From positions 1 through 34,866 of the forward strand of contig JANQMF010000193.1 in the NCBI GenBank assembly GCA_028280225.1: a DNA stretch of 34,866 nucleotides, given 5' to 3'. Below are positions 9,494 through 16,063 of the stretch, piece by piece. The translations under genes were made by a program, and so were the position numbers. Every line of letters begins with the position of its first letter. The first letter of the stretch is position 1. The stretch is from Pseudomonadales bacterium. Its GTDB lineage: Bacteria; Pseudomonadota; Gammaproteobacteria; Pseudomonadales; Azotimanducaceae. The notes beneath the pieces were generated by a model. That model had not been told where the DNA came from. It did not search any database and saw only the letters and a program-made list of their open reading frames with translations.

Positions 9494-12400
9494 ATGAACC
9501 GTTCCCTGACTGCCTATTTTTGTGGTGAATTTCTGCATGAACTGCAGATGGGCCTGAAGAGTTTTGTGGTGCCGCTGGTTGTTTTTGTACTCAGCATCTA
9601 CATGCTGCTGATCTTCCTTAACGCGGACTATATGCGGGCCATGGGTGCGGTGGATATCTATCGCAACAGTGCCCATCTCACGTACTTGATGGCTTCCGGG
9701 CAGTCGCTGTGGCTGTACTTTGCCTGGGCCTGGGTATTCGCCCAGGTCATTGTGCGTGACCAGAATGCGCAACTGCAAGAAGTGGTTCTGGCGGCGCCGG
9801 TGCCCTTGCAACTCACTTTGCTGGCGCGTTTTGCTGGTGCCCTGGTGATTGCCGTGATCATGGGGGCTTCCGTTTATCTTGGTTTTGTCTCGGCACCTAT
9901 TCTGGTTGCCCTGGGGGCGCTGCCGCCGGAGGCGGTGGGGCCTGCGCCCTGGGCTGCATTTGGCTGGTCACTGTTGGTGTTTACCTTGCCCAATGCCTTA
10001 GGCACCGGCGCCATATTTTTATGTGCCGCCATCTGGACCCGCTCCACTGTTGGTCCCTTCAGTGCTGCTGCCGGGGTTGCCCTGGTGTGGATGGTGGCCA
10101 TGATCGTGTTGCGCGGTGGCGAGGTTGATGTGGCGGCCGCCTCGGTGCTGGACCCGTCCGGCTACTCGGAAGCGGAACGCCAGTCCATGTTGTGGACCCC
10201 GGTGGAGAAAAAAAGCGCCATCATCGCCCTGACGGATCTGCTGGTTTATAACCGCCTGATCTGGATGGTGTTGCCACTTGGTTTGCTGAGCTTTGTCCTG
10301 ATCCGGTTGCGGCGTGAACAGCTGGCCATCGTGGGTAAGGCCCGTATTGACGATGATGACAAAAGCACCATAAACACAGTGCGCGAAGGGCGCCCGGCTC
10401 TGCCCCCCATCGGCACTCCTTCCTGGGTGCGGGCGCTTGCCAACGAGGCGGTCTGGAATTTCAAGTTGATTACCTCCGGGTTCGGGGTGCGGCTTGCTTT
10501 GTTTATGTTGCTGCTGTCCGGGGCCCTGGGTGCGTGGGTGAACTTTGTGGGTCACATAGACGGACCCCTGGTGCCTACCCCCCAGGGACTACTGCCCTTT
10601 GTCGCCGAGTTTTTCTACGTGATTGTTGTTTTTATGGTGGTTGGCTTTGTTGGGGGGCTGATGCGCCGCGATGACCGGCTGGGGTATGACGAGTGGGTGG
10701 ATTCCAGCTTCGCCCCCATGGGGGTACGTCTGCTTGCCAAATGTATCACCGCGCTGGCGCTGATTGCCGTTCTGTGTATTGTACCGGCGCTTTCCTCTCT
10801 GGTGGTAACGGCACTTGGTGCGCCCGCTGCGTTGGACCTTGCCTTCCCCTTTATATTTATGTTTCTGACGTTCTTTCCCGCCTTGGCTGAAGTGGGGGTG
10901 ATGGCAATCTTCGCGCACGCTTTGTTCCGGCGCGCGGGCACGGCCTATGTGGCATCGATATTAATTGCCTTTATCGCCATCATTAATCACGAGGTTTCGG
11001 TAATTGAATACCCGCCCGCGCAAATTGCCATGCCCACCCACGCCCATCCATCCCAGTTGGCCGGCTGGGGGCCCTGGCTGCCCATGATATTTTCCATGGC
11101 CGGCTTGAAACTGGCCCTGTTTGCCGCCGGTGTGGGTTTAAGTTGGTTACTCTGGCGCAGGGGCTCTGTATTCACCGTGACTGAGCGCCTTGCGGCTGCC
11201 CGGGAACGGCTGTTTGGATCGGCGGGTGTGGTCACGGTGACCGCCGGGCTGGCGCTGGTGATGTTTGCGAATCTGCTCAACACTCACTTGGTGGAGGCGG
11301 GAGATTTTGAGACCAAGGCGGAAGAGATTGCCACGGACATAGCCTGGGAGCGAACCTGGTGGCAGCGGGCTGCCCCCTTTGCCCTGCGCGGTGGATCGGT
11401 TGAGGTGAAGTTGGTGCCGGAGGAGCGCACCGGTGACATTGTCTGGCAACTGCAGGGTCTGCGCGCCACACACCTGCACGGCACCCTGCCTCATGGCATT
11501 ACCCTTGAACGGGCCAGCATTGCGGAAGTTGCGCAAACGATTGAACAGGACGGGGATCACTTTGTGGTCCAGGTGCCCAATTGCCGGGTTGAGTGTGACC
11601 TGACCCTGCACCTTGCGGTGGAACATCAGGGCTGGCCCGTGGAAACGGCACCCTGGCTGCATGTCAGCGGGGTGTGGTTGCGGGCGGAAAATATACTGCC
11701 CAGACTGGGTCATGACCCCCGGCGTCTGGTGCGCTCGCTGGGTGACCGCAAAGACTATGGGCTGCCGCAAGAGCTGCCGTCTATGCCGGTTCCGGATGCG
11801 CTGGCGCCAATCCGCGGCGTGGCACCCGCCGGGGAATGGCGCTGGCAAATCGATGCCCCGGCGGGGACTACGGTGGGAGCCCGGGGCGCCGCGCAAGGTG
11901 TATTGGACTTTGCCTTTGTATGGTTGCCGCAAAGTTTGGAATTAGATACCGCGGCAGATGTGGCATTTGTGGCGAGTCAATCGCGGCACCAACAAATCCC
12001 TCTATTCGCGGAAGAAGTGCAAGCATTCAGCGCCTGCGTTGCCGAAGAGTTGGGCCAACAGCCCGACGTACAGACGGTGATTCAGTCGCCGCGGGACCTG
12101 GGTGATATGGCCCTGCATGGCGCGATGTTATGGGCGCCGGAAGACGCCGTTTGGGAATCCGACGGCAGCGGCTCCGGCGGCTGGCAGCGGCAATTTAATC
12201 TGGCCCAAGCGCTCGCCCGCCAGGTTGTGCTGGGTCAGCATGATTTGCGGGCGGAGCATGGTGCCCAGTGGTTGCTGGAGGGTGTGTCCGGTTGGACCGC
12301 GCTGCGTTGTGTGGAACGCCGCAGTGGATTTGAGGCCGGCATGGCATTGCGCAAACTACACGCGGAACAGTTGATCGAAACCTTTGCCGAGTCCGATGAA

Positions 12401-12844
12401 CCCATCACTACAACCGCAGAGGCTTATTCCCCATGGCTGTCACAGTATGCCACCCTGGCGCTGGATAACTGGGGGGCGGCGGACGGTTTGCGCAAGCCTC
12501 AGGCCATTGCCGGCGTCCTGCAAAATGCATCGCGCGAATCTCTTGTCGACGCGCTGGAAAAAACCTTGGGAAGCCAGGAAGTGGTTGCGTTAATGGATGC
12601 ACCCAAGGCAGGTGATGTGACAGTGATGCGATCCGGGGCGGGCCTTGAGATTGTCGCCAGCCGCTGGCTGTGGGCGGTAAGCGGTTGGCAGGTGATGGAT
12701 GCACCCGCACGCCTGCTGTTGCGGGAGCCAGGCACGGACCAGGGTAACTGGGTTGATATGGACCAACCGGACACCACCAAAAGCGGCCTGTTGATTGATG
12801 CAACCGCGTTGTTCGAGCGCACGCTTGAAGACAACAATCTGTAA
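9494..12844 (+). CDS. ABC permease fused to a degenerate M1-peptidase-like domain
   Basis: An unusually large permease of 1116 residues. Residues 1 to about 590 hold two sets of ABC-2-type transmembrane helices, separated by a hydrophilic stretch at about 280-320. Residues from about 610 onward are soluble and probably periplasmic; they resemble the M1 aminopeptidase region known in 'ABC permease/M1 family aminopeptidase' proteins. The zinc site is lost. Where active M1 enzymes have HELAHQWW, this protein has QALARQVV (Gln905, Ala906, Arg909), while WLLEG with Glu929 is still recognisable at nearly the expected spacing. The domain is therefore probably a non-catalytic binding domain. The gene pairs with the ATPase at 8606-9481 and is co-transcribed with the TonB receptor. 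Transport of a siderophore or peptide-like ligand is inference. Confidence 0.88.
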   Translation: MNRSLTAYFCGEFLHELQMGLKSFVVPLVVFVLSIYMLLIFLNADYMRAMGAVDIYRNSAHLTYLMASGQSLWLYFAWAWVFAQVIVRDQNAQLQEVVLAAPVPLQLTLLARFAGALVIAVIMGASVYLGFVSAPILVALGALPPEAVGPAPWAAFGWSLLVFTLPNALGTGAIFLCAAIWTRSTVGPFSAAAGVALVWMVAMIVLRGGEVDVAAASVLDPSGYSEAERQSMLWTPVEKKSAIIALTDLLVYNRLIWMVLPLGLLSFVLIRLRREQLAIVGKARIDDDDKSTINTVREGRPALPPIGTPSWVRALANEAVWNFKLITSGFGVRLALFMLLLSGALGAWVNFVGHIDGPLVPTPQGLLPFVAEFFYVIVVFMVVGFVGGLMRRDDRLGYDEWVDSSFAPMGVRLLAKCITALALIAVLCIVPALSSLVVTALGAPAALDLAFPFIFMFLTFFPALAEVGVMAIFAHALFRRAGTAYVASILIAFIAIINHEVSVIEYPPAQIAMPTHAHPSQLAGWGPWLPMIFSMAGLKLALFAAGVGLSWLLWRRGSVFTVTERLAAARERLFGSAGVVTVTAGLALVMFANLLNTHLVEAGDFETKAEEIATDIAWERTWWQRAAPFALRGGSVEVKLVPEERTGDIVWQLQGLRATHLHGTLPHGITLERASIAEVAQTIEQDGDHFVVQVPNCRVECDLTLHLAVEHQGWPVETAPWLHVSGVWLRAENILPRLGHDPRRLVRSLGDRKDYGLPQELPSMPVPDALAPIRGVAPAGEWRWQIDAPAGTTVGARGAAQGVLDFAFVWLPQSLELDTAADVAFVASQSRHQQIPLFAEEVQAFSACVAEELGQQPDVQTVIQSPRDLGDMALHGAMLWAPEDAVWESDGSGSGGWQRQFNLAQALARQVVLGQHDLRAEHGAQWLLEGVSGWTALRCVERRSGFEAGMALRKLHAEQLIETFAESDEPITTTAEAYSPWLSQYATLALDNWGAADGLRKPQAIAGVLQNASRESLVDALEKTLGSQEVVALMDAPKAGDVTVMRSGAGLEIVASRWLWAVSGWQVMDAPARLLLREPGTDQGNWVDMDQPDTTKSGLLIDATALFERTLEDNNL

Positions 12845-13613: not shown

Positions 13614-13985
13614 ATGATGCAAAATCCAGTTTCATATTTCGAAATACCCGTGGCGGATATGGACCGAGCGATTGACTTTTATCAGGCTGTGTTTGCGGTG
13701 TCCCTTACGCGGACCGAGATAGATGGTCATGATATGGCGCTGTTTCCGTTTGATGAAAACGCTCAGGGTATTTCGGGTGCCCTTGCAACCGGTGAAAGCT
13801 ATGTGCCCTCGAGTTCCGGACCCCGCATTTACTTCTTTGTCGAGAACATTGAGGCAACCTTGGATCAGGTCATCACCAAGGGTGGCGAGGTGGCCTATCC
13901 CAAAACATCCGTTGGGGATTTTTGGGTGGCGGAATTTGTGGACAGTGAAGGTAATCAGATTGCCCTGTCATCCGCTAACCCGTAA
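13614..13985 (+). CDS. VOC-family (glyoxalase/bleomycin-resistance fold) protein
   Basis: A 123-residue protein with the paired beta-alpha-beta-beta-beta motif of the VOC superfamily. The first half has YFEIPVADMDRAIDFYQAVF (about 8-27) and the second has RIYFFVENIEATLDQVITKGG and FVDSEGNQIAL near the C-terminus. Usual metal ligands (paired His/Glu) are not evident: the start of strand one has Glu10 but no His, and the C-terminal position where Glu is expected is occupied by Gln or Ala. It is therefore probably one of the non-catalytic or binding-type VOC proteins found widely in bacteria. Two adjacent ATGs at 13614 and 13617 cannot be distinguished. It converges on the selenoprotein gene with a 17-bp gap. 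Confidence 0.88.
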   Translation: MMQNPVSYFEIPVADMDRAIDFYQAVFAVSLTRTEIDGHDMALFPFDENAQGISGALATGESYVPSSSGPRIYFFVENIEATLDQVITKGGEVAYPKTSVGDFWVAEFVDSEGNQIALSSANP

Positions 13986-14002
13986 ACGTATTGATTTAAC
14001 CG

Positions 14003-15223
14003 CTACTGTTCGCGGCTGGTTCGCTGTTGTGCCTGCCCCTGCATACGCCGGGTGTTGAGGATCGAGCGTATGGCACCAAGGGGGTGTCTGCGGAACTGGC
14101 GCAACACCAGGCGCCGCAGATGCGGTTCGCTGTCCATATCCGAGCGGCGTTGGCCGGTATCCCCGTGGAAGCGTAGCCTGGGCATGTCGACCGGCTCGAG
14201 GAAAACCTCCAGGTCCAGTATTTCTGTTTTCGGCTCAAGCAGCACAGCCCCGTCGCTGGCTACTACGCGGACCTCCACCCGGATCGTAATCGAGTCATTC
14301 TCGATGGGTCTGCACTCGGAGATCAGCGCAGCCTGTGCGTAGACGGGAATGACCAGGTCTGTATTCCCCTGGAAGACGGCCACGTTTTCCCCGGCGATGA
14401 TTGTGTCCACAGTGGCTGGTGCGGCGGCATCCGCAATGACCAGTCCGGGTGGTCCGGTTACCGCAACAGAAGTGCCCGGGCCATGGGGACCTGCCCCGGC
14501 AATGATCTGGATACCTTCGCGTGGTTCGATGCGGACCACAATCTGCCGTTCAATACCCTGGCGCAAGGTGCCGCGCCCGCCGTGGAAGTACACGTTAATA
14601 CGCAGGTTGTTGTCCCCGGCTGTGGCGCTGGGCGCGGAAGGGTCAATGGAGATCTCGCCGCGGATACTGTCGATCAGGTGCTCCGGGCTTGAGCGGATCT
14701 TGTAGCTGTTGTGAACGAAGCTGCGGACCAGGTTTCCATCGTTGTCCGTAACAAAGATAGCCGGAAAGGGAACGCCGTAAGCGGGAATGTCGCCGGGTGG
14801 CACCTCGGTGTTCAGCACATGAAAGCGCTTGATCACCTGAGACTTCACGTCGGCGAGCATTGGATATTCAATGTGATAGGTGTCCGAAAAGTTCTTGAGG
14901 GCGCCGACATCGTCATAGGAAATGGCGTAGAGCTTAACCCCCGCTTCGGTAAAGCGGCGATGGGCATCGCGCAGCTCAACGAGCTGCGTAAAGCACGCCG
15001 GTCACCAGACGGCGGATCGGTAAAAGACAATAACCGCGGGTGATGAGCCTCGATCGGTATGGAAGTCGACGAGGTTGCCGTACTGATCCGGCAGGGAAAA
15101 GTCAGGCAGACGCGTGCCGATATCGGGGCCGATGCGCATGCCGCTGGGCAGGTTGGCACGCACAGGCAGGCCCACCGCCGCCGGCGCTTCAAATCCCAGT
15201 TCATCAATTTCGGTTACGCTCAT
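14003..15223 (-). CDS. Redoxin (AhpC/TSA-like) selenoprotein with in-frame TGA (Sec74) and C-terminal extension
   Basis: Conventional ORF calling gives two fragments, 15223-15002 and 14860-14003, which share one reading frame separated by a single TGA at 15002-15004. Read through as selenocysteine, they give a 406-residue protein. Residues about 30-195 are a thioredoxin-fold redoxin: TRLPDFSLPDQYGNLVDF, AVIVFYRSAVW, then U74-P-A-C77, QLVELRDAH, AISYDD and GVPFPAIFVTDNDG. The UGA falls exactly where the resolving/peroxidatic Cys of WCPxC redoxins lies. A hairpin fitting a bacterial SECIS element follows. The second fragment could not be a separate gene, because its first ATG lies inside the redoxin fold. 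Residues about 196-406 form a further region rich in beta-strand pattern that I cannot identify; DsbD N-terminal-like is one weak possibility. GAGGA precedes the ATG. It follows the SDR gene by 42 bp, probably in one operon. Nonsense mutation is the alternative. Confidence 0.85.
14970..15004 (-). promoter_or_regulatory. Candidate bacterial SECIS element with its UGA
   Basis: On the coding (minus) strand the TGA is followed by 13 nt, then CGCAGCTC-GTT-GAGCTGCG: a perfect 8-bp stem with a 3-nt loop whose first base is G, starting 22 nt after the UGA. Bacterial SECIS models, as I recall them, need an apical loop of about 3-14 nt with G at the first or second position, placed about 16-37 nt after the UGA. 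This element meets each requirement. The hairpin lies wholly within coding sequence (QLVELR), as bacterial SECIS elements do. Confidence 0.75.
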
Positions 15224-15265
15224 TCAGGTCCTCGTTTGATCTGTCCTCGATTTTCTTCCAGTGCC

Positions 15266-16063
15266 TCAGAATAGCGAATAGTGCTGGCCACCGTCGATGA
15301 CGATGTTCTGGCCGACGATGAAGCGCGACAGCGGGCTGCACAACAGGGCCGCCATGGGCGCCAGGTCGTCAGCCTGGGCCACAAAACCGGCGGGGATTTT
15401 GTTGTTGGCCAGGAAATGTTCGCGCACCACCTCGGGTTTGGGCTCCAGGCCAAAAGCTTCAGCGTAGGTGCCCATGATCTCGCTGGCGCCTTCGGTGGCG
15501 AACATGCCGGGTAACAGATTGTTAATGGTGATACCGTACTGTGCCACCTCGCGGGAGACCCCGGCGGTGTAGTTGATGAGTGCCGAGCGCGCCGGCCCGG
15601 ACATCAGGCGCCAGATCATCGGATTTTTGGCCGAGAACGTAGCGATGTTGACGATCCGGCCCCAGCCCCGGGTCTTCATCCCCGGAATATAGTTGCGCAT
15701 GATCTCGATGGGGCCGATGAGGGCCGTTTCGATGGATTCGCGCCATTGCTCAGGGGTCAGTTTCAGGAAATCACCGTTGGGATTTGGCGGCTTGATGGTG
15801 ATGGCCAATATGTCCGGGTCCGGGCACGCCTCAAAAAGCGCCTGGCGTCCATCTTCCTTGGAAGAGTCTGCCACAATTGGGGTGACCGTCACCCCGTACT
15901 TCTGCGACATCTCGTCCGCTGCTTGCACCAGCCGTTCCTCGCGCCGGGCGGAGATAAAAAGTTCCGCGCCCGCTTCCGCCAGCCGTTCTGCCGTTGCCCG
16001 ACCCATACCGGCGCTGCCACCGGCCATCAGTGCCTTTTTGCCTTTGATCTGCAGGTCCATCAT
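15266..16063 (-). CDS. Divergent short-chain dehydrogenase/reductase (SDR) lacking YxxxK
   Basis: A 265-residue protein from the ATG at 16063 (GGAG 5-8 nt upstream; a second ATG follows directly). The Rossmann start reads KKALMAGGSAGMGRATAERLAEAGA, a variant of TGxxxGxG. The NNAG motif is replaced by AITIKPPNP, and where the catalytic YxxxK should be the protein has SGPAR in LMSGPARSALINYTAGVSREVA. From memory, a set of FabG-like SDRs has NxxxR-like replacements at this place, so this could be a divergent but functional subfamily; a classical NAD(P)H-dependent carbonyl reduction cannot be assumed. It precedes the selenoprotein gene by 42 bp on the same strand. The AraC regulator lies upstream on the same strand and could control this pair. 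Confidence 0.88.
   Translation of the reverse strand: MMDLQIKGKKALMAGGSAGMGRATAERLAEAGAELFISARREERLVQAADEMSQKYGVTVTPIVADSSKEDGRQALFEACPDPDILAITIKPPNPNGDFLKLTPEQWRESIETALIGPIEIMRNYIPGMKTRGWGRIVNIATFSAKNPMIWRLMSGPARSALINYTAGVSREVAQYGITINNLLPGMFATEGASEIMGTYAEAFGLEPKPEVVREHFLANNKIPAGFVAQADDLAPMAALLCSPLSRFIVGQNIVIDGGQHYSLF

Follow-up and report, generated by a model that had tools for sequence, protein, structure and literature searches.

A predicted UxxC redoxin selenoprotein of a Pseudomonadales bacterium, with homologues that carry a DsbD_N-like domain

The window, i.e. the whole stretch of DNA analysed here, comprises 34,866 nucleotides and corresponds to contig C99 of a draft genome of 4.44 Mb (242 contigs, 96.7% complete). 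Its minus strand contains a frame of 406 codons that ends in TAG and includes a single in-frame TGA (Table 1). Translated with TGA as U, the frame gives 406 residues with one U, at residue 74, in the context FYRSAVW-U-PAC, and Cys77 is retained. Under translation table 11, the same frame appears as an ORF of 285 aa (14860-14003) and an upstream piece of 73 codons, the two truncated ORFs that a preliminary description of this DNA had expected from standard annotation. Its single frame, lone TGA, coordinates and residue numbers were likewise right, as was its placement of the TGA at the cysteine of a WCPxC motif, seen here as W-U-P-A-C.

The Pfam models AhpC-TSA and Redoxin (E 4.1e-15 for the latter) both span the TGA. 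As the AhpC-TSA match crosses this codon, and homologues align over nearly the full length with TGA at the same codon, the frame is more than chance. The region is most likely one gene, seemingly cut by a stop, in which TGA is read as selenocysteine, and we are close to certain of the predicted selenocysteine at residue 74. None of the NCBIfam models scores above its own cut-off on the protein; the SelL-related redox protein model (NF040769) matches the redoxin part weakly, with 22.8 bits, far under its curated cut-off of 120. No hydrophobic signal segment or membrane anchor is visible by eye at the N-terminus, and the cytoplasm is therefore the likely location of the protein.

Table 1 Features of the selenoprotein locus and further redoxins with in-frame TGA in the source genome (G000).
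Feature	Position	Strand	Evidence
Selenoprotein gene, 406 codons and TAG, single in-frame TGA	14003..15223	-	Frame read with TGA as U
Codon 74, TGA for selenocysteine in the motif W-U-P-A-C	15002..15004	-	Same codon TGA in 29/29 and 79/79 covering homologues
AhpC/TSA (redoxin) domain, residues 35-166	14726..15121	-	PF00578, E 4.7e-28
SECIS-type hairpin, 8-bp upper stem, 3-nt loop GUU, 21 nt past TGA	14970..14988	-	Folding and covariation
C-terminal region, residues 195-354, aligning with the DsbD_N-like domain of homologues, without Cys pair	14162..14641	-	Alignments
L002 redoxin, W-U-P-F-C	G000:C75:10753-11256	+	In-frame TGA, PF00578
L003 redoxin, W-U-P-Y-C	G000:C54:26654-27100	-	In-frame TGA, PF00578
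L004 redoxin, W-U-P-A-C	G000:C195:12653-13126	+	In-frame TGA, PF00578

The structure model of the protein (pLDDT 92.8, pTM 0.90) resembles peroxiredoxins and ResA-like proteins among the best 50 of 1342 PDB matches, in alignments of 137-199 columns that we take to be the redoxin half. Peroxiredoxins of the Bcp/PrxQ type are the best sequence and fold matches. Four of the five PDB alignments listed are with peroxiredoxins; in each of them, Cys77 is paired with the conserved Cys, and Sec74 with the S/T that precedes this Cys by three residues. These matches speak for a selenoprotein that is a thiol peroxidase (peroxiredoxin), in which Cys77 would be the peroxidatic residue and Sec74 its partner. 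In peroxiredoxins, however, the peroxidatic Cys is preceded by T/S at a distance of three residues, and in the window protein the T/S position of T/S-x-x-C is occupied by Sec. The ResA fold also matches, and here Sec74 lies on the first Cys of WCxxC, so that Sec74 and Cys77 align with the W-C-x-x-C pair. The available parts of two reviews contain tables that separate PF00578 UxxC proteins from TxxU peroxiredoxins (PMC13188914, PMC9312934). We therefore regard a peroxidase role as unlikely.

Given the PDB alignments, a predicted thiol:disulfide oxidoreductase is most likely the better supported assignment. The function had been left as "thiol peroxidase or disulfide reductase"; the disulfide side of that pair is favoured, and the peroxidase side is lowered by the same alignments. 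The window copy combines a PF00578 domain with UxxC, the hallmark of Prx-like UxxC thiol:disulfide oxidoreductases. It differs from the ResA type in having Sec for the first Cys, an extra C-terminal domain and no anchor by eye. Taken as a whole, including its predicted role, the description as a UxxC Prx-like thiol:disulfide oxidoreductase selenoprotein is probably correct.

The TGA is shared by the relatives. In the source organism's family, 100 of 200 genomes, its own included, contain matches at E 1e-20 or better, and a homologue is also present in G050, which belongs to the same genus. TGA is present at the equivalent of codon 74 in all 29 family loci fetched (L025-L053), nearly all of which read W-U-P-P-C. 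Among named genomes, a single-sequence scan returned no relative and an alignment query returned 144; the TGA counts cover the best 80 of these, the remaining 64 lying outside all of them. A script that would also accept C, S or T read TGA in 78 of the 80 loci. Read directly, L089 has TGA too, and the site lies outside L101, so that all 79 covering named loci, a set that partly overlaps the 29 family loci, have TGA. The labels of the named records span Gammaproteobacteria, Alphaproteobacteria, Deltaproteobacteria/Myxococcota, Acidimicrobiia, Acidobacteria, Dehalococcoidia and Spirochaeta, although nearly all are metagenome bins, whose taxonomic labels can be wrong. TGC or TGT at this codon in sister sequences, which the preliminary description held to speak against its own proposal, is absent from the two-domain homologues read.

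Cysteine forms are found only among distant redoxins. A search of the class outside the family at E 1e-40 gave one genome of 274, the source genome itself. The phylum search at 1e-30 gave six of 398, namely the source genome and five Cys redoxins. All five are shorter and distant, match over the redoxin part only, and contain W-C-P-Y-C with TGC or TGT, thereby supplying the Cys aligned with U that had been proposed as a check. At the level of sequence, these redoxins and the TGA homologues are the Sec/Cys pair expected of a selenoprotein. The source genome also contains three further PF00578 redoxins with an in-frame TGA and the motif W-U-P-x-C (Table 1).

To the 3' side of the TGA, dN/dS is 0.068-0.147 in six of ten homologue pairs, those with a downstream dS below 1.3, and this low ratio indicates that the relatives' sequence beyond the TGA is protein-coding. 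The same six pairs have values of 0.065-0.099 on the 5' side (one upstream dS is 1.44). Saturation is approached or exceeded in the other four pairs, which include both comparisons with the window copy; between the window copy and L031, dN/dS is 0.147 upstream and 0.31 downstream of the TGA. In a tree of 88 rows, the window copy forms a long branch of 1.27, the place of which is unsure. The long branch, together with the loss of two conserved cysteines, suggests that the function of this copy may have drifted, and the same two features could point to a pseudogene or a sequencing error, the TGA being a true nonsense change and the frame dead. Yet the window copy has 332 open codons past the TGA, its relatives are under purifying selection on both sides of it, and the same-codon TGA in every two-domain homologue read refutes such an explanation for the protein family as a whole; for this copy we give it hardly any weight.

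The source genome encodes most of the machinery for selenocysteine. We found selA (521.2 bits, cut-off 267.9), selB (339 bits, cut-off 242.25) and selD (272.5 bits, cut-off 125). The first two are adjacent on contig C49, where the contig end cuts selB after 382 codons. The selD frame (L022, G000:C181, 1411-3555, minus strand, 714 aa) is fused behind a pyridine nucleotide-disulphide oxidoreductase domain. Of the four genes that the preliminary description had proposed to look for, naming absence of the machinery as a refutation, selA, selB and selD are thus present over curated cut-offs, and tRNA-Sec (selC) was not found in the draft assembly. Rfam gives five hits there, the best of which, at 42.5 bits, stays below the gathering score of 47; ARAGORN assigns the five to Ser, Gly, Ser, Trp and Ser tRNAs.

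Relatives indicate where the missing gene may lie. tRNA-Sec scores above the cut-off in 24 of 33 genomes chosen within the family (own genome included), and is absent above the cut-off in six relatives chosen for having the redoxin (G141, G187, G123, G091, G064 and G022). At 25 fetched loci (L134-L158), ARAGORN reports 23 tRNA-Sec, one Lys and one Ser tRNA. Ten of the 25 have a SelB match upstream on the same strand, and in nine of these ten the tRNA starts about 810-890 nt past SelB residue 347-351 (about 1,350 nt in the tenth). SelB is roughly 620 residues long. From this spacing and length, the tRNA-Sec of the relatives is placed approximately at the end of selB. In certain lineages, Gammaproteobacteria included, selC lies within or overlaps selB, according to the part of PMC13188914 available. 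Judging from the relatives, the most likely place of the missing tRNA-Sec is the assembly gap at which selB breaks off.

Downstream of the TGA, the sequence folds into a SECIS-type hairpin. The 50 nt from the TGA have a minimum free energy of -23.2 kcal/mol (z -2.95), a value as low being reached by 2 of 200 shuffles. The GUU loop, 8-bp stem, distance of 21 nt and -18.7 over 45 nt agree with the bSECIS model as set out in the available part of PMC13188914. The same agreement is seen in 54 of 200 synonymous recodings of the window and, across the family, in 64 of 86 homologues compared with 4218 of 17200 recodings (24.5%). Rfam searches of 13800-15500 returned six hits, all below gathering scores, and no Rfam family at the site.

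The conserved part of the hairpin consists of the inner six pairs, without the outermost and the loop-closing pair. Numbering from the T of TGA as 0, pair 17/33 is standard in 79 of 83 distinct sequences (51.4 in shuffles), occurring as G-C or C-G; for pair 20/30 the count is 81 of 83 (73.8 in shuffles), with G-C, A-U and G-U forms; none of 2000 shuffles reached the observed support for either, although relatedness of the sequences inflates these and the following counts. The changes seen at pair 20/30 are silent, as they affect the third base of a Gln codon (position 20) and the first base of a Leu codon (position 30). The outermost (16/34) and loop-closing (23/27) pairs are standard in 47 and 40 of 83, the same as in shuffles. 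In 39 picked sequences, 96.6% of the cells of the six inner pairs contain a standard pair, compared with 89.3% after shuffling (0/500 shuffles as high), and 15 cells are changed on both sides against 5.4 in shuffles, with 0/500 as high. The number of pairs with two-sided change, two, is not above shuffles (1.9). Of 86 distinct sequences, 73 form all six of the inner pairs, compared with 6.5 expected from synonymous recoding, for which codons were drawn by the window's codon usage, one organism's usage being applied to all sequences. Five of the ten sequences listed (L025, L029, L031, L077 and L112) fold no better than their own recodings.

The absence of tRNA-Sec from the assembly would fit a TGA that is read as Trp or Cys, or by plain read-through, without selenocysteine, but selA, selB and selD are present, TGA is a normal stop elsewhere (it ends three of the 15 long ORFs chosen in the window and several of the homologous genes themselves), distant homologues have Cys at the equivalent of residue 74, and the hairpin covaries; we judge such decoding extremely improbable. 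The proposal of a selenoprotein is supported by selA, selB and selD, the conserved TGA, the SECIS-type hairpin and the purifying selection in relatives.

The C-terminal region of the homologues resembles the N-terminal domain of DsbD. Pfam DsbD_N (PF11412) matches 19 of 20 aligned members, and the region taken alone gives a match in 12 of 13 at E up to 1. Two Cys are nearly invariant in the homologues, spaced C-x(3-5)-C within a motif that resembles QACDDxxC. Unlike the DsbD domain itself, this region is fused behind a redoxin. The Cys pair is present in 101 of 108 proteins of both sets, not all distinct, six of which are too short. The window copy is the only one without it, i.e. one of the 102 long enough to judge, and has no PF11412 match at E 0.01. 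A PDB sequence search with a profile of the C-terminal domain gave nothing at E up to 1.

We compared seven window neighbours with ORFs around the 80 named homologues (best 80 of 144) at 1e-10, and two of them matched, an SDR and a frame of 1116 aa. Counterparts of the SDR in L087 and L102 share about 40% identity with it and lie more than 1 kb away from the redoxin; those in L058, L066 and L073 share 24-27%. The 1116-aa frame has a 28%-identical relative near the homologue in L093. In the window, this open frame lies at 9494-12844 on the plus strand and has no Pfam match at E 0.001. Other genes recur next to the redoxin in Halieaceae (12 loci) and Acidimicrobiia (13 loci) and are absent from the window.

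In the proposed mechanism, SelB and tRNA-Sec would enable the ribosome to insert selenocysteine at the UGA of codon 74, and the downstream hairpin would guide this decoding. Sec74 would then attack substrate disulfides or oxidised thiols, and Cys77 would resolve the resulting selenyl-sulfide, in the manner of the two Cys of a ResA-like WCxxC. The DsbD_N-like domain of the relatives contributes a second pair, C-x(3-5)-C, which may exchange electrons with the U-C pair of the same chain, an internal relay modelled on DsbD. As the window copy has lost this pair, it should need an outside partner such as thioredoxin. A broader picture is offered tentatively, with more doubt than confidence: the subfamily would join a UxxC redoxin to a DsbD-alpha-like domain as a soluble, self-contained two-centre relay, in Sec form only as read and in several phyla, and the window copy would be a derived member, in which the second centre is lost and the domain remains as a scaffold.

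The kind of protein is not new. UxxC Prx-like selenoproteins were in print by 2005, when the available part of a Sargasso Sea study already counts them among previously known families (PMC1088965), and they appear in the part seen of a bacterial survey (PMC1794560). Excerpts of the GOS study describe Prx-like 1-3, with Prx-like 2 and 3 fused to unnamed or other domains (PMC2398784). Prx-like thiol:disulfide oxidoreductase selenoproteins with PF00578 and UxxC are listed in tables from the accessible sections of two reviews (PMC9312934, PMC13188914). As far as these partial sources go, the window protein shares with them the Pfam domain, UxxC, the marine setting, the hairpin past the UGA and the Cys homologues. 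It differs in the DsbD_N-like C-terminal fusion of its relatives, the GOS fusions being compared by description.

While the UxxC Prx-like kind is already known from marine bacteria, the C-terminal DsbD_N-like domain of the homologues is less expected. The fusion was not found in the literature searched, outside which most subscription journals lie. The term "DsbD" occurs nowhere in the available text of PMC1088965, PMC2398784 or PMC9312934; its single occurrence in that of PMC13188914 refers to another protein, the rhodanese/DsbD fusion-like TsoB. The DsbD_N fusion may be the same as a GOS form with unnamed domains. The same literature search, again with most subscription journals outside it, found no paper on selenocysteine in Halieaceae.

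The analysis rejoins a split gene that ordinary annotation breaks. It also directs attention to a lineage of marine Gammaproteobacteria in which selenocysteine serves in several redoxins. The two-domain homologues read, in which a DsbD-type domain is joined to the redoxin, include no Cys form, and their fusion makes it possible to test why selenocysteine is retained there.
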